Shown one piece after another: positions 8,853 to 29,558 of a stretch of 64,000 nt of DNA (position 1 is its first letter; the number at the start of each line of letters is the position of its first letter). The stretch comes from Chlorobium sp. (GTDB lineage Bacteria; Bacteroidota; Chlorobiia; Chlorobiales; Chlorobiaceae). The stretch is from assembly GCA_005862285.1 (NCBI GenBank), contig SZXW01000010.1, positions 310,001-374,000 on the forward strand, read 5' to 3'. A model generated the notes under the pieces. The model made no database searches and was not told the origin of the DNA. It saw nothing but the letters and a program-made list of their open reading frames with translations. The translations under genes were made by a program, and so were the position numbers.

Positions 8853-10427
8853 CTATTTCAGGTTCTCGATAACGAAATAGGCAAGCGCCGAACCTGAAAT
8901 GGCACAAAACGTATTGACCAGATCGTTGTTGACAAAGGGGATTCCTTTAAGGAGCCTGTTTTCAACCAGTACACCATCAGGGGCGACGCTATGGGTCCGT
9001 TCCGTCACTTTTTCCCTGATAGGGTCAAAATACTGAGCCTGGACCGTAGCTCCAAAAAAACTGTCAACAAGACTTGCAAGAAGTCCTGAAAAACCGATCA
9101 GGAGAAGTGACTGAATGATGCCGAAAGATACAACCCACTGAACATTCATGAGCACCGAGCTTGCACAGATGAACAGAGAACCTATGAAAGCACCTGATGT
9201 CCCCGGAACGGACACTCCGCCGGAGGTCCCGACCGGAACTTCCTTGAACGTAGTGATAAGCCAGGCTTTGGGGTTCGGCCACATGGTGCCGATTTCCGTT
9301 GCCCACGTATCTGCCTGGACAGCCGCAAGCGTTCCGAGATAAGCGAAAAATATCGCCGGATCGTTCGTCAGTGAAAAGACGATCATCATTATCCATGCTA
9401 TCCCTCCGTTGGCATAGACCTGACCGGCATCACGCTGGGATCCTTTCTCGAAAACGAGATCGAATTTCGCCTTCCTTTTTTTGCCCAGCTTCGAGAGGAC
9501 CGAGGAAAGAAGGTAGAATGTGAGCAGAGGCACCGTCCAGGTCAACCCGCCGATACCGAAAATCGTGGTCCCGAGAAGGAAGGTGGCCGTAGCGCCACTG
9601 TTGTTGAGAAACTTGACCTTGATGGAAAAAACAGCGAGCAGAAATGCAAAAAGCCCTCCGATAAGGAAATTTCCAAGCTGAACGGTATGGTTCACTTCGA
9701 GAACATAGAGCACATACGATATCGAAGCGGGAATGAAAAAATTGTCGAGACCATGGGAGAGCATCGCTTCGACAGCCGTTGCCACAAGGGCGAGAAGCAG
9801 TGCGAGGGCCAGAAGCATCAGGACCGGCTGCCCGGAAAGTCCGCCGCTGAAATTCGTGTTGAAAACCATGAACCCGACAGAGAGCAGCAGGAACGAGCAT
9901 AAAAACATCGTGACAGAGCCTTCGATGGTTTTCGGGCTTTTCGTCAGATGCTCGATATGTTTCTTACCAACCGAGCTGCCGACCAGCGCGGCAAGCGAAT
10001 CGCCTATCCCCATGACAAGCATTGAAAGCTGGAGTATCCATTTATGTGATTCCCACAGGAAAAGGATCTGGATCAGCAATATGAGAGGGAAATAAATCGA
10101 GCCGTAGCTTTTTACCGCACCCGGCTGAGCTTCGCTGATGCCATGACCGGAAAGCAGGGATCTGAACCACCCGAATTTCAGGTTGAGGCTGCCGAGAACT
10201 ATGAGAAACAAGGCGGCAAGAGCTGGATAAAAGTTTGACTGGAAATAGTCCGGCAGGAAAAAAATGGCGACACCGAGGGAAAAATGAACAACTTTTCTGG
10301 CGACTAAGGTATTGACGCTGAATTTCCTCGTCAGCATTTCCGCAAGAAGCACAAAAAACAAAACGAGGCTGATGGTCAGAAAAAAGGCCGGGAGGTCATG
10401 CGGCAAAGGATCTTGAAGGTTCAGCAT
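8853..10427 (-). CDS. Fusion of a phytol/dolichol kinase-like domain with a DUF92 (VTE6/TMEM19) domain
   Basis: A 524-residue polytopic membrane protein with two recognisable halves. Residues about 1-235 resemble the phytol/dolichol kinase and CTP-transferase family (RKVVHFSLG near 44-52; GIGDSLAALVGSSVGKKH near 140-160; about seven membrane helices). Residues about 250-524 are a DUF92 domain (LGTLAAVQADTWATEIG, then GTSGGVSVPGTSGAFIGS). In plants the separate proteins VTE5 and VTE6 carry out phytol to phytyl-phosphate to phytyl-diphosphate, so the fusion suggests both steps in one membrane protein. The natural alcohol here could be phytol or farnesol, both of which esterify bacteriochlorophylls in green sulfur bacteria; this is inference. 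It ends 48 bases before tolQ on the same strand. Confidence 0.8.
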   Translation of the reverse strand: MLNLQDPLPHDLPAFFLTISLVLFFVLLAEMLTRKFSVNTLVARKVVHFSLGVAIFFLPDYFQSNFYPALAALFLIVLGSLNLKFGWFRSLLSGHGISEAQPGAVKSYGSIYFPLILLIQILFLWESHKWILQLSMLVMGIGDSLAALVGSSVGKKHIEHLTKSPKTIEGSVTMFLCSFLLLSVGFMVFNTNFSGGLSGQPVLMLLALALLLALVATAVEAMLSHGLDNFFIPASISYVLYVLEVNHTVQLGNFLIGGLFAFLLAVFSIKVKFLNNSGATATFLLGTTIFGIGGLTWTVPLLTFYLLSSVLSKLGKKRKAKFDLVFEKGSQRDAGQVYANGGIAWIMMIVFSLTNDPAIFFAYLGTLAAVQADTWATEIGTMWPNPKAWLITTFKEVPVGTSGGVSVPGTSGAFIGSLFICASSVLMNVQWVVSFGIIQSLLLIGFSGLLASLVDSFFGATVQAQYFDPIREKVTERTHSVAPDGVLVENRLLKGIPFVNNDLVNTFCAISGSALAYFVIENLK

Positions 10428-10547
10428 GGTTCTGATTTGTTATTTACTTGAAAAAAACACTGAACAGTACTCTGAATGCATAAAAAATATCATTTTAACT
10501 CTTCAGAATAAAAAGTAAACATCATGGACAGTGTAATTTTTTTGTTT

Positions 10548-10576
10548 TTGTTTTAATAAAACTTTCACATTAAATT
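10548..10576 (+). promoter_or_regulatory. Candidate sigma-70 promoter of the ilv-leu operon
   Basis: TTGTTT (10548-10553) and TAAATT (10571-10576) are separated by 17 bases in an AT-rich stretch, and fall about 45 bases before the leader peptide ATG. Matches to consensus are only partial, so this is a weak call supported mainly by spacing and position. Confidence 0.35.
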
Positions 10577-10622
10577 GCGGTGATTATTTAGTTTTCTTAT
10601 TGGAAGAAACCTGTTCGCGTCA

Positions 10623-10796
10623 ATGTCCGCATCTGATCAGCATAATGTTCATTCCTGCAGGAGTTCCTGTGCTTCTGCATCAATAACTCCTTCAGGCCGC
10701 ACTGCCCGGGCAGAGCAGCTGTCGAACGCCTTCTCTTCCAGGATCGGAATCGTCATCCCAGTGGTGCTCCCGGTAGTGAGCATTATTATACTCTGA
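10623..10796 (+). CDS. ilv operon leader peptide (attenuator), 57 aa
   Basis: A short open frame from the ATG at 10623 to TGA at 10794-10796, placed 117 bases before ilvD. Its last 17 residues read IGIVIPVVLPVVSIIIL: 14 of 17 are Ile, Val or Leu, precisely the three products of the operon downstream. This is the signature of a ribosome-stalling leader peptide as in enterobacterial ilv operons. The N-terminal 40 residues are Ser/Ala-rich without recognisable domains. No other in-frame ATG, GTG or TTG exists before the Ile/Val/Leu run, so the start is fairly firm, though the ribosome binding site is weak (GGAAGAAACC). Hairpins that could act as terminator and antiterminator follow. Homologues with covarying hairpins would settle it. 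Confidence 0.8.
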   Translation: MSASDQHNVHSCRSSCASASITPSGRTARAEQLSNAFSSRIGIVIPVVLPVVSIIIL

Positions 10797-10881
10797 TTTT
10801 CAGAGCCGGTCCCAAGTCCATTTACCTCTTTCAGACTATTCATTTCAGTGGCTTCGGGAACGGCGCTACCCAGGATTTTTT
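10791..10881 (+). promoter_or_regulatory. Candidate transcription attenuator of the ilv-leu operon
   Basis: Two overlapping hairpins follow the leader codons. The first, CTCTGA-TTT-TCAGAG (10791-10805), contains the leader stop codon. The second pairs 10802-10816 with 10852-10867 (AGAGCCGGTCCCAAG against CTTCGGGAACGGCGCT, a few mismatches) and is followed 8 bases later by six T residues (10876-10881). A ribosome reaching the stop codon would block the first hairpin and allow the second, which could terminate. A ribosome stalled on Ile/Val/Leu codons would leave the first free. The logic is inferred and the stem-to-T-run distance is longer than usual. Confidence 0.5.
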
Positions 10882-10913
10882 GTTGTTTAAAAAAATAAAA
10901 TACTGATAATGAA

Positions 10914-12611
10914 ATGAGATCTGATACCATAAAAAAAGGGTTTGAAAAAGCTCCACACCGCAGTCTGCTTAAAGCGACCGGTTCAATCGCTTCCGACAAT
11001 GATTTCAAAAAACCCTTTATCGGGATCTGCAACTCTTTCAACGAGCTGATCCCCGGCCATGCCCACCTGCAGGAATTTGGCAGGATAGCGAAGGAAGAGG
11101 TCCGCAAGGCCGGCGGCGTTCCTTTCGAGTTCAATACGATCGGGGTCTGTGACGGCATCGCCATGGGGCATATCGGCATGCGGTATTCACTCGCGAGCCG
11201 CGAGCTGATAGCCGACAGTGTTGAAACCGTCGCGGAGGCACACCGTCTCGACGGACTGGTCTGCATTCCCAACTGCGACAAGATCACACCGGGAATGATG
11301 ATGGCCGCGCTTCGCATCAACATACCCGTCATCTTCGTTTCCGGCGGTCCGATGAAGGCGGGCCATACCCCCTCAGGCAAAACCGTCGACCTGATCTCGG
11401 TTTTCGAAGCGGTGGGCCAGTACAGTACCGGAAACATCAGCGAAAGCGAACTTCAGTCTTATGAAGACAACGCCTGTCCCGGATGCGGCTCCTGCTCCGG
11501 CATGTTCACCGCCAACTCGATGAACTGCCTGTGCGAGGCGCTCGGGTTCGCATTGCCCGGCAACGGCACTATCCTCGCCCAGGATCCGAGACGGATCGAT
11601 CTTGTCAGGGAGGCTTCCCGCCGAATCGTCGGGCTCGTGAACGAAAACGTGAGGCCAAGGGACATCCTTACGAGAAAAGCGCTCCTGAACGCATTTGCTC
11701 TCGATTTCGCGATGGGTGGAAGCACCAACACCATCCTCCACTCGCTCGCTATCGCCACGGAAGCGGAACTTGATTTCGATTTTTCGGAACTGAACGGACT
11801 TTCGGCAAGGACGCCATACATCTGCAAAGTGAGCCCCGCCACTATGGATGTCCATATCGAGGACGTTGACCGTGCCGGCGGCGTTTCAGCAATTCTGAAA
11901 GAGCTCTCTAAAATCGACGGTCTGCTCGATCTCTCGGCAATGACCGTAACCGGAAGGACACTTGGCGAAAACATCGCCGATGCGGATGTCAATGACCGTA
12001 CGGTCATCAGGAGCATCGAGAACCCGTATTCAGCGACCGGAGGCCTTGCCGTGCTCTACGGCAACCTCGCTCCGCAGGGTGCCGTGGTGAAAACCGGAGC
12101 GGTCGCACCGGAAATGATGAAGCATACCGGTCCTGCAAAGGTATACGACTGTCAGGACGATGCGATCAAAGGCATCATGGACGGAGACGTGAAAGCCGGC
12201 GATGTCGTGGTTATCCGCTACGAAGGACCCAAAGGCGGGCCTGGAATGCCGGAGATGCTCTCCCCTACCAGCGTGATCATGGGACGCGGCCTCGGGTCAT
12301 CGGTAGCACTCATCACCGACGGACGTTTTTCGGGAGGATCGAGGGGCGCGTGTATCGGGCATGTATCACCGGAAGCTGCAGAAAAAGGCCCTATCGCCGC
12401 ACTGCAGACGGGAGACACGATAACCATCGATATTCCCGGGAGAAGCATTTCAGTGAACCTTTCGGCAGAAACAATAGCCGAGCGGCTCTCCGCTCTGAAG
12501 GAATTCGAACCGAAAATCAAGAAGGGCTATCTGGCAAGGTATTCCCAGCTGGTAACATCGGCAAATACCGGCGCAGTCCTTAAAAGCCCTGTTTCCTGTG
12601 AAATCAAATAA
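10914..12611 (+). CDS. ilvD: Dihydroxy-acid dehydratase
   Basis: A 565-residue iron-sulfur dehydratase that converts 2,3-dihydroxy-isovalerate and 2,3-dihydroxy-methylvalerate to the 2-oxo acids, the penultimate step of Val and Ile synthesis. The IlvD/Edd family cysteines are present in [26 protein letters not shown] and [19 protein letters not shown]. The Mg/substrate regions [12 protein letters not shown] and [10 protein letters not shown] are also seen. Length is normal. It is the first structural gene of a nine-gene operon and is preceded by an Ile/Val/Leu-rich leader peptide. ilvB starts 11 bases after it. Confidence 0.97.
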
Positions 12612-12622
12612 ATATAGAAGCT

Positions 12623-14344
12623 ATGCATACAACAGGCCAGATACTGAATGGATCGGAAATATTCTTCGAATGCCTGCGGCGTGAAAACGTCGAATATATC
12701 TTCGGGTACCCCGGAGGATCGCTGCTGAAAGTCTACGAGACGCTCCATGATGTCGAAGACATCAGACACATCCTTGTCCGTCACGAACAGGGCGCGACCC
12801 ACATGGCGGAAGGATATGCGCGTGCCACCGGCAAACCCGGCGTCGTCCTCGTCACGTCGGGGCCAGGCGCAACCAACACCGTCACCGGCATTGCCAATGC
12901 CTACATGGACTCATCTCCGATAGTTGTTTTCACGGGCCAGGTTCCGAGCTCGCTTATCGGCAATGACGCATTCCAGGAAGCCGATATCGTGGGCATAACC
13001 AGGCCGATCACCAAGCACAACTTCCTGGTCAAGGATGTCAAAGAGCTCGCGATCACCATCCGCAAGGCCTTCTACCTCGCCACGACAGGCAGGCCCGGAC
13101 CGGTTGTCGTCGACATGCCCAAGGACGTCCTGGCTGCCACCTGCGCGTTCGAGTGGCCGGAAACCGTTGAAATCCGCGGTTTCAAACCGACATTCAAGTG
13201 CCACAAGAACCAGATCGAAAAAGCCGCGCACAAAATTGCGAAGGCAAAACGTCCGCTGCTCTACGTCGGAGGCGGCGTCATTACGGCAGAAGCATCGGAA
13301 GAGCTCCGGACACTGGCCATAAAATACAATATCCCGGTGACCATGACCCTGCAGGGACTTGGTTCCTTCCCGGGCAACCATCCCCTGAGCATGGGCATGC
13401 TCGGCATGCACGGCACTTACTGGGCTAACCAGGCGGTCAACAACTGCGACCTGCTCATCGCCGTCGGCGCCCGTTTCGATGACAGGGTTACCGGAAAAAT
13501 CGACGCGTTCGCTACGCAGGCATACAAAATCCACAACGATATCGACCCGACCAACGTCGACAAGAATATCAAGGTTGACCTGCCTGTCGTAGGCGACTCG
13601 AAGGATTTCCTCGCTTCCCTGCTTGAGGAGATGCCGGAAAAGACGGAAGATCGTGAGCCATGGCTTGCCGATATACAGAAGTGGCGCAAAAAATGTCCTC
13701 TCAGCTATACGATCGAACCGGATTCGCTGAAAACCGAGTTCGTGATCGAGGAGGTTTCGAAACAGACTGCCGGTAATGCGGTTGTCGTTACCGATGTCGG
13801 CCAGCACCAGATGTGGACGACACAGTTTTATACGTTCCTGAACCCGCGCTCCATCATTTCGAGCGGAGGGCTCGGCACCATGGGCTACGGCCTTCCGGCA
13901 GCCATCGGCGCGGCGTTCGGCGTCACGGACCGCCCCATCATTCTTTTCTGCGGGGACGGCGGTTTCATGATGAACATCCAGGAACTTGTCACAGCGGTCT
14001 ACTCCAGGATACCGATCAAGATATTCCTGATCAACAACAGCTATCTCGGCATGGTACGCCAGTGGCAGGAGCTATTCCACAAGGAGAAGTACTCCTTCAC
14101 CGATCTCGGCGACAGCAATCCTGATTTTGTCAAGCTTGCCGAAGCGTTCGGATGCAAGGCCCTGATGGCCGACAACCCCGAAAATGCGAAGGAAGCGATC
14201 AAAATCGCCCTTGACTACAACGAGGGTCCGGTCCTTGTCGACTGCAGGGTTGTCAGAAAAGATATGGTATTCCCAATGGTGCCTGCGGGAGGAGCGATTT
14301 CGGATATGCTCCTTGCAAGGTTAAACCCTAAAACAATGGTTTGA
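12623..14344 (+). CDS. ilvB: Acetolactate synthase, large (catalytic) subunit
   Basis: A 573-residue TPP enzyme of the acetohydroxyacid synthase type, joining two pyruvates to acetolactate (Val/Leu) or pyruvate with 2-oxobutanoate (Ile). Seen are the activating glutamate in VRHEQGATHMAEGYAR, the FAD-binding middle region GMLGMHGTYWAN, and the TPP/Mg motif GDGGFMMNIQELVTAV followed by NNSYLGMVRQWQ. It lacks the His-His pair of decarboxylases. The regulatory subunit gene follows 8 bases after the stop codon. Confidence 0.97.
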   Translation: MHTTGQILNGSEIFFECLRRENVEYIFGYPGGSLLKVYETLHDVEDIRHILVRHEQGATHMAEGYARATGKPGVVLVTSGPGATNTVTGIANAYMDSSPIVVFTGQVPSSLIGNDAFQEADIVGITRPITKHNFLVKDVKELAITIRKAFYLATTGRPGPVVVDMPKDVLAATCAFEWPETVEIRGFKPTFKCHKNQIEKAAHKIAKAKRPLLYVGGGVITAEASEELRTLAIKYNIPVTMTLQGLGSFPGNHPLSMGMLGMHGTYWANQAVNNCDLLIAVGARFDDRVTGKIDAFATQAYKIHNDIDPTNVDKNIKVDLPVVGDSKDFLASLLEEMPEKTEDREPWLADIQKWRKKCPLSYTIEPDSLKTEFVIEEVSKQTAGNAVVVTDVGQHQMWTTQFYTFLNPRSIISSGGLGTMGYGLPAAIGAAFGVTDRPIILFCGDGGFMMNIQELVTAVYSRIPIKIFLINNSYLGMVRQWQELFHKEKYSFTDLGDSNPDFVKLAEAFGCKALMADNPENAKEAIKIALDYNEGPVLVDCRVVRKDMVFPMVPAGGAISDMLLARLNPKTMV

Positions 14345-14352
14345 ATCGGACT

Positions 14353-14829
14353 ATGAAGCACATCATTTCTGTTCTCGTCGAAAACAGGTTCGGCTCCCTT
14401 AACCGCGTCGCAGCCATGTTCAGCGCTCGCGGGTTCAATCTGGAAAGCATCTCCATCGGTGAAACCGAGGACCCGGAAATCTCGCGTATGACGATCGTGA
14501 CAAGGGGTGACGACCAGATCATCAACCAGGTGCTAAAGCAGCTCAACCGGCTGATCGACACCATCAAGGTCACCGACCTGACAAGGCAGCCCCATGTCGA
14601 AAGGGAGTTGCTGCTGATGACGCTGAAGCTCAGCAAAACCACGCAGCACGAGATTTTTGAGCTCATCAACGTTTTTAAAGGAAAAGTCGTGGATATAAAG
14701 CAAAAATCCATTACTATTGAGGTCATCGGTTCTCCGGACAAGATCAATACGTCCATTGATATCTTCAAGCCCTATGGTATAAAGGAGCTTGCCCGTTCCG
14801 GCGTTGTCGCGATACACCGGGGAGAATGA
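14353..14829 (+). CDS. ilvN: Acetolactate synthase, small (regulatory) subunit
   Basis: A 158-residue regulatory subunit with an N-terminal ACT domain (HIISVLVENRFGSLNRVAAM, residues about 3-75) that binds valine and gives feedback control, and a C-terminal domain (MTLKLSKTTQHEIFELI). The ATG at 14353 is chosen; an in-frame TTG at 14341 would overlap the ilvB stop codon. It pairs with IlvB, encoded immediately upstream. Confidence 0.95.
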   Translation: MKHIISVLVENRFGSLNRVAAMFSARGFNLESISIGETEDPEISRMTIVTRGDDQIINQVLKQLNRLIDTIKVTDLTRQPHVERELLLMTLKLSKTTQHEIFELINVFKGKVVDIKQKSITIEVIGSPDKINTSIDIFKPYGIKELARSGVVAIHRGE

Positions 14830-14862: not shown

Positions 14863-15855
14863 ATGAACGTTTACTATGAGCAGGATGCCGATCTCGGTTA
14901 TCTCCAGGGGAAAAATATAGCGATACTCGGTTACGGCAGTCAGGGCCATGCTCATGCCCTGAACCTCAAGGACAGCGGCCTGAACGTCTGTGTGGGCCTC
15001 CGCCCCGACAGTTCCTCCTGTGCAAAGGCAAGGGAAGCCGGTCTCCAGGTCAACACGGTTGCCGATGCAGCGAAATGGGCCGATATCATCATGGTGCTCC
15101 TGCCCGACCAGTACCAGAAAACCATCTATGAAAACGAGATCCTGCCGAACCTGGTTCCGGGCAACACACTCGCTTTCGCTCATGGTTTCAATATCCATTA
15201 CAAGCAGATCGTACCGCCTGAAACGATAAACGTCATCATGATCGCGCCGAAAAGCCCCGGCCATCTCGTCCGCCGCACCTTCACCGAAGGCAACGGCGTA
15301 CCGTGCCTTATCGCCGTTCACCAGGATTATACCGGTGAGGCGAAACAGCAGGCTCTCGCTTGGGCGAAAGGCCTCGGCGGCACAAAAGCCGGCGTTATAG
15401 AAACAAACATCAAGGACGAAACCGAAACCGACCTGTTCGGCGAACAGGCCGTGCTCTGCGGCGGATCTGCCGAACTGATCAAGGCCGGGTTCGAAACCCT
15501 TGTCGAAGCCGGATATCCGGAAGAGCTTGCCTATTTCGAGTGCATGCACGAGTTGAAGCTTATCGTCGACCTCTATTATGAAGGCGGCCTTTCAAGAATG
15601 AACTTTTCCGTCAGCGATACGGCAGAGTACGGCGGCATGACCCGCGGACCCCGCGTCATCACCCCGGCGGTGAAGGCTGAAATGAAGAAAATCCTCACCG
15701 AAGTTCAGGACGGTCGTTTCGCGAAAGAGTTCATCGACGAGTGCAACGGAGGCTACAAAAACCTTTCCCAGCTGAGAAAGGACAACAGCGGCCATCCGAT
15801 CGAAAAAGTCGGCGCCAAGCTTCGCGACATGATGAGCTGGCTTGTCAGGAAATAA
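14863..15855 (+). CDS. ilvC: Ketol-acid reductoisomerase (class I)
   Basis: A 330-residue NADPH-dependent enzyme. It rearranges and reduces acetolactate or acetohydroxybutyrate to the dihydroxy acids used by IlvD. The Rossmann nucleotide-binding motif is [16 protein letters not shown] (about 22-37). Metal-binding acidic residues lie in [14 protein letters not shown] and the C-terminal knotted domain includes [14 protein letters not shown]. Length is typical for the short class I form. It begins 33 bases after ilvN. Confidence 0.97.
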
Positions 15856-15871
15856 GAAGGACGGGAGAATC

Positions 15872-16930
15872 ATGTACAGAATAGTTTCGATCCCGGGCGA
15901 CGGAATCGGCCCGGAAGTTGTCGCGGGGGCCCTCGAGGTACTCGGCACAGTTGCAAAAACACATGGACTTGAATATTCGGTCGAAGAGCACCCCTTCGGA
16001 GGTGCATCATATGACCTTCATGGTGAAATGCTCACCGAGGACACGCTCGAAGCATGCAGAAACTGCGATGCTGTCCTGCTTGGTGCGGTTGGAGGACCCA
16101 AATGGGAAAACCTGCCTCACGAAAAGAAACCGGAAGCAGCACTCCTGAGGATACGCAAGGAGCTTGGACTTTTCGCGAACCTCAGGCCGGCGAAGGTTTA
16201 CGACGCACTTGTCGATGCTTCGTCGCTGAAGGACGAGGTGGTCAGGGGCACCGACTTCCTCGTGTTCAGGGAGCTCACTGGCGGCATCTATTTCGGACAG
16301 CCCCGCGGATATGACGAGAACCGCGGCTGGAATACCATGGTATACGAACGCTACGAAGTCGAACGCATTGCCAGGCTCGCTTTCGAGGCGGCCCGCAAGC
16401 GGACGGGCAGGGTCATGTCCATCGACAAGGCAAACGTGCTCGAAGTCTCCCAGTTCTGGAGGAACGTCGTGCACGAGGTACACAAGGAGTATCAGGATGT
16501 TGAACTGAGCGATATGTATGTCGACAATGCAGCGATGCAGATCGTCCGCAACCCGAAGCAGTTCGATGTCATCGTAACCGGCAACCTCTTCGGCGACATA
16601 CTCAGCGACATCGCCGGTATGATCACCGGCAGCCTCGGTATGCTGCCTTCGGCCAGCATCGGCACAAAACATGCACTGTACGAGCCTATCCACGGCAGCG
16701 CGCCGGACATCGCGGGCAGGAACATCGCCAATCCGATCGCGACCATCGCTTCGCTTGCCATGATGTTCGAGCACAGTTTCCGCAGAACGGACATTGCTTC
16801 GGAAATCTATGAAGCGATCGAGAACGCGCTCGCTTCCGGCATCAGGACCGCAGATATCGCGAAACCGGGTGAAAAGAGTGTTTCGACAACCGATATGACA
16901 AATACAATCGTCAGGCACCTCGGCGCCTGA
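15872..16930 (+). CDS. leuB: 3-isopropylmalate dehydrogenase
   Basis: A 352-residue NAD-dependent decarboxylating dehydrogenase of leucine synthesis. It also handles the methylmalate intermediate of the citramalate isoleucine route. Motifs are IPGDGIGPEVV at the N-terminus, RKELGLFANLRPAK, FRELTGGIYFGQPRG, and the metal/substrate site NLFGDILSDIAGMITGSLG. The ATG at 15872 has a good ribosome binding site (AAGAAGGACGGGAG); an upstream TTG at 15842 would overlap ilvC. Confidence 0.97.
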   Translation: MYRIVSIPGDGIGPEVVAGALEVLGTVAKTHGLEYSVEEHPFGGASYDLHGEMLTEDTLEACRNCDAVLLGAVGGPKWENLPHEKKPEAALLRIRKELGLFANLRPAKVYDALVDASSLKDEVVRGTDFLVFRELTGGIYFGQPRGYDENRGWNTMVYERYEVERIARLAFEAARKRTGRVMSIDKANVLEVSQFWRNVVHEVHKEYQDVELSDMYVDNAAMQIVRNPKQFDVIVTGNLFGDILSDIAGMITGSLGMLPSASIGTKHALYEPIHGSAPDIAGRNIANPIATIASLAMMFEHSFRRTDIASEIYEAIENALASGIRTADIAKPGEKSVSTTDMTNTIVRHLGA

Positions 16931-16952: not shown

Positions 16953-18524
16953 GTGAGAGAAAAAATCCTGGTTTTCGATACAACGCTGCGCGACGGAGAG
17001 CAGTCCCCAGGGGCCTCCCTGAATGTTCAGGAAAAGGTTGAGATTGCCCGTCAGCTCGAAAAGCTCGGTGTGGATGTGATAGAAGCCGGTTTTCCGGCTT
17101 CTTCCCCTCTGCAGCTCGAGGCGGTGCAGCGTATCTGCTCGGAATCGCAAACGGTCATCGCGGCGCTTGCCAGAGCGGTGGAAAATGATATCACCGCTGC
17201 ATGGAAGGCGCTGAAAGATGCCGGCAAACCGAGGATCCATACCTTCATCAGCACATCCGAAATCCACATTCTCGGCAAGTTCGGAAGCGACCGCTACGGA
17301 ACAAGCCTTCAGGAAAAACAGCGGACCGTGCTTCAGATGGCGGTCGATGCCGTGAAGTTCGCGAAAACCTTCACACCCGATGTGGAGTTTTCAGCCGAAG
17401 ACGCCGGAAGGACCGATCCTTGTTACCTTGCCGAAATAATCGGTGCGGTTATCGAAGCCGGAGCCACAACGGTCAATATACCCGATACTACCGGCTACAC
17501 GTGGCCATCCGAATTCGGTGAAAAAATAGCCCGACTTTTCGCAAATGTGCCGAATATCGGCAATGCCGTGGTGAGCGTGCACTGCCATAACGACCTCGGC
17601 CTTGCCGTTGCCAATTCGCTCAGCGCCGTCGAGCATGGCGCCCGCCAGATCGAATGCGCTATGAACGGTATCGGCGAACGCGCAGGAAACGCTTCCCTCG
17701 AGGAAATCGTCATGGCACTGAAAGTCCGGAGCGACCTGCACAATTTCCGGACAGACATCGTGACCGAAGAAATTTACAACACCAGCCGCATGGTCTCCGC
17801 TTTCACCGGCATGATCATACAGCCCAACAAGGCAATTGTAGGTGACAACGCTTTCGCGCATGAATCCGGCATCCATCAGGACGGGATGCTGAAAAGCCGC
17901 GAGACTTATGAGGTCATGACACCCGAATCGGTCGGTGTGCCGCAGACAAGCATCGTGCTCGGACGCCATTCCGGCAAGCATGGCCTTCAGTCAAGGCTTC
18001 TTGCACTTGGCTATAAACTCGGCGACCAGGAACTTGAAGCTGTTTACCGCCGTTTCCTTGATATAGCCGACAAGAAAAAGGAAGTGTATGACGATGACCT
18101 GAGGGTGCTGATGGGAGATGAAATGAACAGGGCGGGAGAAACCTACGAGCTCGATTATATGCATATCAACAGCGGAACCGCATCGATCCCGACGGCAACC
18201 GTGAGGATCATACATGAAAACCAAGTGTATGAGGAATCCGCTACCGGCGACGGTCCGGTCGATGCCTGTTTCAGGGCTATCGAAAGGGCTCTCGGCATCG
18301 AATCGATGGTGAGCACCTACACCGTACGTTCCGCCACAGCCGGCAGGCAGGCCCTCGGTGAAGCCCTGGTTCGGATCAGGGACGGAAATATCTCATTCAA
18401 CGGAAGAGGTGTATCGACCGACATTATCGAAGCCAGCGCGAAAGCGTACCTTCAGGCACTCGGCCTGCGCAGGCTTCATGACGTGAACAATACAACCGAA
18501 ACAATAACAGACAACGGGGTTTAA
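16953..18524 (+). CDS. leuA: 2-isopropylmalate synthase
   Basis: A 523-residue enzyme that condenses acetyl-CoA with 2-oxoisovalerate, the first committed step to leucine. The HMGL-like TIM barrel has FDTTLRDGEQSPGASL at the start, VEFSAEDAGRTDPCYL, and metal ligands in HCHNDLGLAVANSL. The C-terminal third is the LeuA regulatory domain that binds leucine (VSTDIIEASAKAYLQAL). The start codon is GTG with GAAGGTAAC just upstream. It is a paralogue of the cimA product four genes downstream. Confidence 0.96.
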   Translation: MREKILVFDTTLRDGEQSPGASLNVQEKVEIARQLEKLGVDVIEAGFPASSPLQLEAVQRICSESQTVIAALARAVENDITAAWKALKDAGKPRIHTFISTSEIHILGKFGSDRYGTSLQEKQRTVLQMAVDAVKFAKTFTPDVEFSAEDAGRTDPCYLAEIIGAVIEAGATTVNIPDTTGYTWPSEFGEKIARLFANVPNIGNAVVSVHCHNDLGLAVANSLSAVEHGARQIECAMNGIGERAGNASLEEIVMALKVRSDLHNFRTDIVTEEIYNTSRMVSAFTGMIIQPNKAIVGDNAFAHESGIHQDGMLKSRETYEVMTPESVGVPQTSIVLGRHSGKHGLQSRLLALGYKLGDQELEAVYRRFLDIADKKKEVYDDDLRVLMGDEMNRAGETYELDYMHINSGTASIPTATVRIIHENQVYEESATGDGPVDACFRAIERALGIESMVSTYTVRSATAGRQALGEALVRIRDGNISFNGRGVSTDIIEASAKAYLQALGLRRLHDVNNTTETITDNGV

Positions 18525-18530
18525 CAAACC

Positions 18531-19826
18531 ATGGAACAGACAATAACCCAGAAAATCCTTGCCAGGGCAGCAAACCGGAAGTTCGTAGATGCCGGGGAGA
18601 ACGTCTGGCTCAACGTCGATATACTGCTGACACACGATGTCTGCGGCCCGCCGACATTCGATATCTTCAAGGAGGAGTTCGGTCCTGACGCGAAAGTCTG
18701 GGACACTGAAAAGATCGTGGTCCTTCCCGACCATTACATTTTCACGGCCAACGAACATGCTCACCGCAACATCGACCTGCTCAGGCAGTTCGCCAAAGAA
18801 CAGAACCTGCCGAACTACTATGATGTCGGAACAAACCGTTACAAGGGCGTCTGCCACGTCGCGCTTGCCGAGGAAGGGTTCAACCTGCCCGGCACGGTAC
18901 TGTTCGGCACCGACTCACACACCTGCACCTCAGGCGCGTTCGGCATGTTCGGCACCGGTATCGGCAACACCGATGCCGCCTTCATTCTCGGCACCGGCAA
19001 GCTTTGGGAAAAAGTGCCTGAATCGATGAAGTTCACTTTCGACGGCGAAATGCCGGAATATCTGACGGCCAAGGACCTGATCCTGCAGATCCTCGGCGAT
19101 ATCGGTACCGACGGAGCCACATACCGCGCCATGGAATTCGACGGTGAGGCGGTCTTCTCCCTGCCTATGGAAGAAAGGATGACGCTCACGAACATGGCCA
19201 TCGAGGCCGGCGGCATGAACGGCATCATCGCAGCCGACAGCATCACCGAAGCCTATGTGAAGTCGAAGACATCGAAACCGTACGAGATTTTCCAGAGCGA
19301 TCCGGGTGCTCGCTACCACAGTAAATACCGCTACAACGTTCGTGAGCTCGAGCCTGTCGTCGCACAGCCGCACAGCCCGGAAAACAGGGCAACGGTAAGA
19401 AGCGTGCAGGGCACGAAAATCACGAAGTCCTATATCGGCTCGTGCACCGGCGGAAAGCTCGAAGATTTCCGGATGGCGGCCAAAATCCTGAAGGGAAAGA
19501 AAGTATCGGTCCTGACCAATATCGTTCCTGCAACGGTCAAGGTCATGCAGGACCTGGAATGCGAACAGTACCAGGGAGAAACGCTTAAATCGATATTCGA
19601 AAATGCGGGCTGCAGCATCGCACTTCCTTCCTGCGCAGCGTGCCTTGGCGGTCCGGCAGACACGGTGGGACGTTCGGTCGACAACGACGTCGTGGTATCT
19701 ACAACGAACCGCAACTTCCCCGGACGCATGGGCAGCAAACATGCGGGCGTATACCTCGCATCTCCGCTCACGGCAGCCGCTTCGGCTGTAACCGGAAAAC
19801 TCACCGATCCAAGGGATTTCCTCTGA
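18531..19826 (+). CDS. leuC: 3-isopropylmalate dehydratase, large subunit
   Basis: A 431-residue aconitase-superfamily subunit carrying the 4Fe-4S cluster, with cysteines in GSCTGGKLEDF and SCAACLGGPADT. The substrate region GTDSHTCTSGAFGMFGTGIG is clear. Its length of about 430 fits the shorter, archaeal-like LeuC/HacA type rather than the roughly 466-residue enterobacterial form. It works with LeuD and, by established pathway logic, also isomerises citramalate. The gene starts 6 bases after leuA. Confidence 0.95.
   Translation: MEQTITQKILARAANRKFVDAGENVWLNVDILLTHDVCGPPTFDIFKEEFGPDAKVWDTEKIVVLPDHYIFTANEHAHRNIDLLRQFAKEQNLPNYYDVGTNRYKGVCHVALAEEGFNLPGTVLFGTDSHTCTSGAFGMFGTGIGNTDAAFILGTGKLWEKVPESMKFTFDGEMPEYLTAKDLILQILGDIGTDGATYRAMEFDGEAVFSLPMEERMTLTNMAIEAGGMNGIIAADSITEAYVKSKTSKPYEIFQSDPGARYHSKYRYNVRELEPVVAQPHSPENRATVRSVQGTKITKSYIGSCTGGKLEDFRMAAKILKGKKVSVLTNIVPATVKVMQDLECEQYQGETLKSIFENAGCSIALPSCAACLGGPADTVGRSVDNDVVVSTTNRNFPGRMGSKHAGVYLASPLTAAASAVTGKLTDPRDFL

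Positions 19827-28044: not shown

Positions 28045-29558
<1,514 letters not shown>

Follow-up and report, generated by a model that had tools for sequence, protein, structure and literature searches.

A probable ribosome-mediated attenuator built on mutually exclusive helices precedes the ilvD-first operon of green sulfur bacteria

We found that the DNA upstream of ilvD in this Chlorobium sp. very probably encodes a ribosome-mediated transcription attenuator of an ilv-leu operon that responds to branched-chain amino acids, a reading that draws on comparison with related genomes. The window, by which we mean the whole stretch of 64,000 nucleotides that was analyzed, carries a putative leader-peptide gene whose last codons are rich in Ile, Val and Leu, followed by RNA segments that can form competing helices. 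The most conserved feature of the region is the pairing of positions 10805 to 10818 with positions 10850 to 10864, which was absent from an earlier, sequence-only reading of this DNA.

RESULTS

Leader gene and operon

A minus-strand gene (8853 to 10427) diverges from the plus-strand ilvD gene (10914 to 12611), and the 486 bases between them (10428 to 10913) contain, just as the sequence-only reading had stated, an open frame of 57 codons. This putative leader-peptide gene runs on the plus strand from an ATG at 10623 to a TGA stop at 10794 to 10796, so that the whole gene (57 codons plus TGA) occupies 10623 to 10796, and its predicted product is MSASDQHNVHSCRSSCASASITPSGRTARAEQLSNAFSSRIGIVIPVVLPVVSIIIL (57 amino acids). 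This frame is conserved in 48 genomes of the order plus 32 others. The candidate control region (10743 to 10793, plus strand) lies directly 5' of the stop and specifies the C-terminal 17 residues, IGIVIPVVLPVVSIIIL, of which 13 are Ile, Val or Leu on our recount and not 14 as first given; this composition is kept over the 48 genomes. When the region was shuffled with its dinucleotide content preserved, a run with 13 such residues in 17 arose anywhere in 1 of 5,000 shuffles and directly before a stop in 0 of 5,000.

The first structural gene, ilvD, encodes a dihydroxy-acid dehydratase (TIGR00110, above cut-off), and the remaining operon genes follow on the plus strand between 12623 and 19826: ilvB (12623 to 14344), ilvN (14341 to 14829), ilvC (14863 to 15855), leuB (15842 to 16930), leuA (16953 to 18524), and a leuC-type gene for the large subunit of 3-isopropylmalate dehydratase (18531 to 19826). 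With this set of genes, arranged as ilvD-ilvB-ilvN-ilvC-leuB-leuA plus the leuC-type gene, the operon therefore makes Ile, Val and Leu, which agrees with the earlier suggestion that all three operon products serve as signal amino acids.

RNA segments and the proposed switch

Four RNA segments, all on the plus strand, can be distinguished at this locus. Segment 1 (GGATCGG, 10741 to 10747) lies within the leader gene, 53 bases before its stop, and is the predicted partner of segment 2 in an anti-antiterminator helix (1:2), a pairing that we assessed by comparing own with species-swapped partners. Segment 2 (GCCGGTCCCAAGTCCA, 10805 to 10820) is a conserved box 8 bases past the stop codon. Segment 3 (GGCTTCGGGAACGGC, 10850 to 10864) can pair either with segment 2, forming the antiterminator helix (2:3), or with segment 4 (GCTACCCAGGA, 10865 to 10875), the 3' side of a terminator hairpin (3:4). 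This hairpin (GTGGCTTCGGGAACGGCGCTAC, 10848 to 10869, -8.5 kcal/mol) and the run of six T residues behind it (10876 to 10881) correspond to the larger hairpin and T-run of the earlier reading, both of which we confirm; a simple terminator scan overlooked this hairpin because the T-run starts 6 bases past the stem. In this genome the 2:3 duplex (-20.3 kcal/mol) is far stronger than the terminator hairpin.

A small hairpin that holds the stop codon (CTCTGA-TTT-TCAGAG, 10791 to 10805, plus strand) had also been described, and it is indeed present here but not generally conserved. A stop-containing stem of at least 5 bp occurs in just 22 of the 48 genomes, where shuffling expects 11, and we rejected it as a general switch arm. 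The earlier reading had set this hairpin against the terminator hairpin; we propose instead that helix 2:3, formed by the boxes at 10805 and 10850, alternates with helices 1:2 and 3:4.

In the mechanism that we envisage, RNA polymerase would transcribe the leader gene with a ribosome close behind. When charged Ile-, Val- or Leu-tRNA is scarce, the ribosome would stall in the end of the leader that is rich in these residues, over or just behind segment 1, and segment 2 would be free to pair with segment 3 once the latter has been made, so that no terminator would form and the operon would be transcribed. With an ample supply of these amino acids, the ribosome would reach the stop, 8 bases 5' of segment 2, and cover the start of segment 2; upon its release, segment 1 would pair with segment 2, segment 3 would then pair with segment 4, and the resulting hairpin with its U-run would end transcription before ilvD. 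Helices 1:2 and 3:4 would also form if the leader is not translated. In this attenuation scheme transcription would start before 10623 and the leader would be translated. That attenuation is coupled to translation had been suggested before, and the conserved frame and the covarying helix described below support this reading, while the switching itself, including its direction and size, is what we infer.

Covariation and folding of the competing helices

IlvD was detected in 51 of the 61 Chlorobiales genomes of the order-wide set, and the 800 bases upstream of each were compared. The element is present in 48 of the 51 ilvD-bearing genomes. In the alignment of these 48 sequences, 90.5% of the cells of helix 2:3 are paired, compared with 25 to 50% in controls with a slid partner, and double-sided changes occur at 7 of the 13 pairs. 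The antiterminator helix covaries strongly and shares segment 3 with helix 3:4. Covariation of helix 3:4 in the 48-genome set was not above that of shuffles, in part because helix 2:3 constrains its 5' side. In 40 of the 48 genomes there is a hairpin of -6 kcal/mol or lower with a T-rich tail, with 6.2 expected from shuffles. For helix 1:2, species-swapped pairing was as strong as own pairing in 12 of 5,000 permutations across the Chlorobiales, a test to which the Chlorobaculum clade, where the pairing signal is weak, contributes little. RNAalifold gave a weak consensus only on the whole alignment, as expected because the helices exclude each other, and helix-by-helix pairing counts were used instead.

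Even when the stop codon was occupied by a ribosome, equilibrium folding favored 2:3 over 3:4 in 33 of the 48 genomes, and termination must therefore rely on co-transcriptional kinetics and on helix 1:2. For RNA ending after segment 2, the mean upstream pairing of segment 2 was 0.46 in ribosome-free RNA and 0.11 when a ribosome sat at the stop; in this model the ribosome partly covers segment 2 in place of such pairing.

A covariance model built from the region and searched against 394 genomes of the phylum matched 78 Chlorobiaceae, one Chloroherpeton-like genome (G002), and G296; the last match (E=0.0046) has neither leader nor boxes and was discarded as chance. According to this model, the Chlorobiales carry one copy of the element per genome, before ilvD. 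In the 32 model-found Chlorobiaceae outside the model-building set, the leader frame ends beside segment 2 without exception (32/32), and 5 to 13 of its last 17 residues are Ile, Val or Leu. Alignment of the DNA before ilvD from other Chlorobiota had been suggested with the sequence-only reading, and in such alignments the frame rich in these residues is kept in 48 of 51 and in 32 of 32 genomes and the antiterminator helix covaries.

The three genomes in which the element is absent (G011, G033 and G052) have ilvD and the same upstream neighbor, but the sequence between the two genes differs. In these small genomes (loci L043, L045 and L057) a conserved stretch of another kind, about ATTTGTATTAANGCATGGGGTGATGTAACTTA, lies before ilvD.

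A different departure is seen in G024, G028 and G030 (L062, L064 and L074), where segments 2 and 3 are retained behind a leader end poor in Ile, Val and Leu (for example, ITPVSGVTLKGSVR). These three of the Chlorobiales examined have no T-tract, and their version of the element is possibly decaying or Rho-dependent.

Relatives outside the Chlorobiaceae

A leader of about 50 amino acids ending in an Ile/Leu run also precedes ilvD in family f10 (another Bacteroidota family, of the same GTDB phylum, with IlvD 70 to 73% identical), in G084, and in MAGs labelled Bacteroidetes, Caldithrix and CSSED10-310; boxes such as GGTCAATCCC and GGGATTGACC come next. Judged from these sequences, the element extends beyond Chlorobiota. 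When 17 more diverse sequences were aligned with those of the Chlorobiales, 91.8% of the cells of helix 2:3 were paired, 7 of 10 pairs had double changes, and double-change cells numbered 17, compared with 5.6 after shuffling. In 28 relatives, segment 2 pairs better with its own segment 1 than with swapped ones, with 0 of 5,000 permutations as strong. A second covariance model matched 45 of 79 f10 genomes at E<=0.01, the weakest of these matches being doubtful. Among 30 f10 loci examined, 29 have a leader rich in Ile, Val and Leu, and the gene that follows is ilvD in 29 and, at one locus (L275, in G354), leuB. A terminator is not evident in this family (5 of 30 loci, with 1 expected). At f10 loci such as L280 and L286, a conserved TATATCTGAAG-like motif without a U-run lies about 10 to 20 bases past segment 3.

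These findings incline us, by a modest degree, toward one attenuator family of old origin, in which helices 1:2 and 2:3 are conserved and which would control branched-chain operons headed by ilvD in Chlorobiota, in other Bacteroidota, and perhaps in Calditrichota. Its output would be replaceable, with an intrinsic terminator in Chlorobiaceae and a Rho-dependent or translational output elsewhere.

The same observations bear on the possibility that the leader works by way of Rho-dependent termination or by controlling ilvD translation, and not through an intrinsic terminator, with helices 1:2 and 2:3 still serving as the sensor. The T-tract is missing in the three Chlorobiales named above and mostly in f10, where leader and both helices are conserved, and this speaks for such an output. 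The excess of hairpins with T-rich tails in Chlorobiaceae (40 of 48) argues against it, and so, for the translational variant, does the position of segment 3, which in Chlorobiaceae ends about 45 to 65 bases before the ilvD start; helix 2:3 therefore does not cover that start. We consider this alternative to intrinsic termination unlikely.

Other arrangements were seen before ilvD in more distant genomes. Family f18 (L146, L149, L151, L154, L160 and L161) and family f15 (L164) have a second attenuator design, with a leader of about 22 amino acids (for example, MITPIIITVIIQVIGVQYRPGK) and, behind it, a strong terminator, AGCCTTCCC...GGAAGGCTTTTTTTTT. A switch of two segments is suggested by several f18 members, whose leader end, CCGGGGAAG, complements the terminator's 5' arm. 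Leader frames rich in branched-chain residues, without the boxes of the element described here, precede ilvD in Marinimicrobia MAGs (L192, L193 and L202), Gemmatimonadetes (L247 and L252) and Desulfobacteraceae (L260 and L263), and perfect inverted repeats of 11 to 14 bp follow the leader in L247, L260 and L263.

Conservation of the leader codons

In all 48 box-carrying genomes the open frame ends 6 to 11 bases 5' of the segment 2 box, and under one choice of start codon the leader has 57 amino acids in 26 of the 48. Ile, Val and Leu make up 55.8% of the last 17 residues over these genomes and 12.1% of the remaining leader. In close pairs, the last 17 codons show 26 changes at the second position versus 49 at the first and 50 at the third, and the second position is expected to change least if the Ile/Val/Leu class is kept. 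Synonymous changes are enriched in these pairs, which are not independent of each other (0.41 versus 0.25 expected).

The high conservation of the RNA boxes might also be taken to favor a metabolite- or protein-binding RNA, that is, a riboswitch or protein site, overlying an accidental reading frame. However, the frame, its Ile/Val/Leu-rich end, the stop position and the second-position conservation persist while the sequence diverges, no Rfam family matches, and there is no complex conserved fold beyond the competing helices, so that we regard such an RNA as highly improbable. Least credible of all is a functional small protein as the product of the frame, with the hairpin as an ordinary stretch of untranslated RNA. 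In favor of it, the leader is long (about 57 amino acids) and begins with residues (MSA.N or MPS.T) that are conserved inside clades. Against it, the peptide body diverges strongly between clades, nothing persists but the RNA boxes and the Ile/Val/Leu composition close to the stop, and the leaders that are shortened (ending IIVVALVI in G046 and IVTVTPV in G032, and also those of G021, G019 and G049) keep Ile and Val codons at their end.

DISCUSSION

Enterobacteria are known to control ilv operons by leader peptides, and leader-peptide attenuation in general is textbook biology in Proteobacteria and is known in Actinobacteria. The enterobacterial ilvGMEDA and ilvBN attenuators, as well as that of trp, resemble the element described here in that they have a leader rich in the product amino acids, mutually exclusive helices 1:2, 2:3 and 3:4, a terminator with a U-run, and a stop codon just before segment 2. 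In contrast to these, the present leader is about 57 amino acids long with all control codons in its last third, helix 2:3 is much stronger than helix 3:4, and the operon begins with ilvD and includes leu genes; we found no sequence relation to the enterobacterial attenuators, which belong to another phylum.

Leader-peptide ilv attenuation has been described in Actinobacteria (PMC1262725, PMC10272879, PMC11857589), and one survey knew of no leader-peptide attenuation outside Proteobacteria and Actinobacteria before its own Firmicutes case (PMC2965389). The ilvB leaders of Corynebacterium and other Actinobacteria (ilvB-II motif; PMC10272879, PMC11857589, PMC1262725) likewise consist of a branched-chain-rich uORF before an ilv operon, with a terminator and an antiterminator proposed, whereas the first gene, the leader and the RNA sequence all differ from those reported here, where Rfam finds no match. 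In Streptomyces coelicolor, a similar-looking ilvB leader gave no response to codon changes (PMC1262725), and this counts against the attenuation reading.

Several other motifs share parts of this arrangement. The ilvB-OMG motif (Weinberg 2017; re-read as a uORF in PMC10272879) has a uORF rich in branched-chain amino acids before ilvB in various phyla, whereas the gene here is ilvD, the boxes differ, and the window and 13 related loci gave no Rfam match. The ilvD (WRC-18-2) motif of Veillonella also lies before ilvD and sometimes has a terminator, but it is reported only in that genus and is a weak riboswitch candidate with little covariation (PMC8632094). T-box leaders control amino-acid genes by antitermination as well and sense uncharged tRNA, whereas here we propose sensing by a translated frame, and Rfam finds no T-box.

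At the covariance-model threshold of Rfam, the element matches no family in any of the loci searched, among them the window and the 13 related loci, the families including the His, Trp, Thr and Leu leaders, ilvB-OMG and T-box. The same window contains a SAM riboswitch on the minus strand (29448 to 29554), with an Rfam score far above threshold. Our literature search found no ilv leader described for Chlorobiota or Bacteroidota, although an earlier prediction in Lopatovskaya et al. 2010 (doi 10.1134/S0026893310010164) is possible.

A covarying attenuator that an RNA model can detect upstream of ilvD in some 80 green sulfur bacteria and in dozens of relatives would extend this mechanism to another bacterial branch, and it offers a cis-regulatory model, open to testing, of how autotrophic phototrophs control amino-acid synthesis. 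Since the sensor is conserved, the apparent shift of output from one lineage to another would amount to a natural experiment in attenuator evolution.
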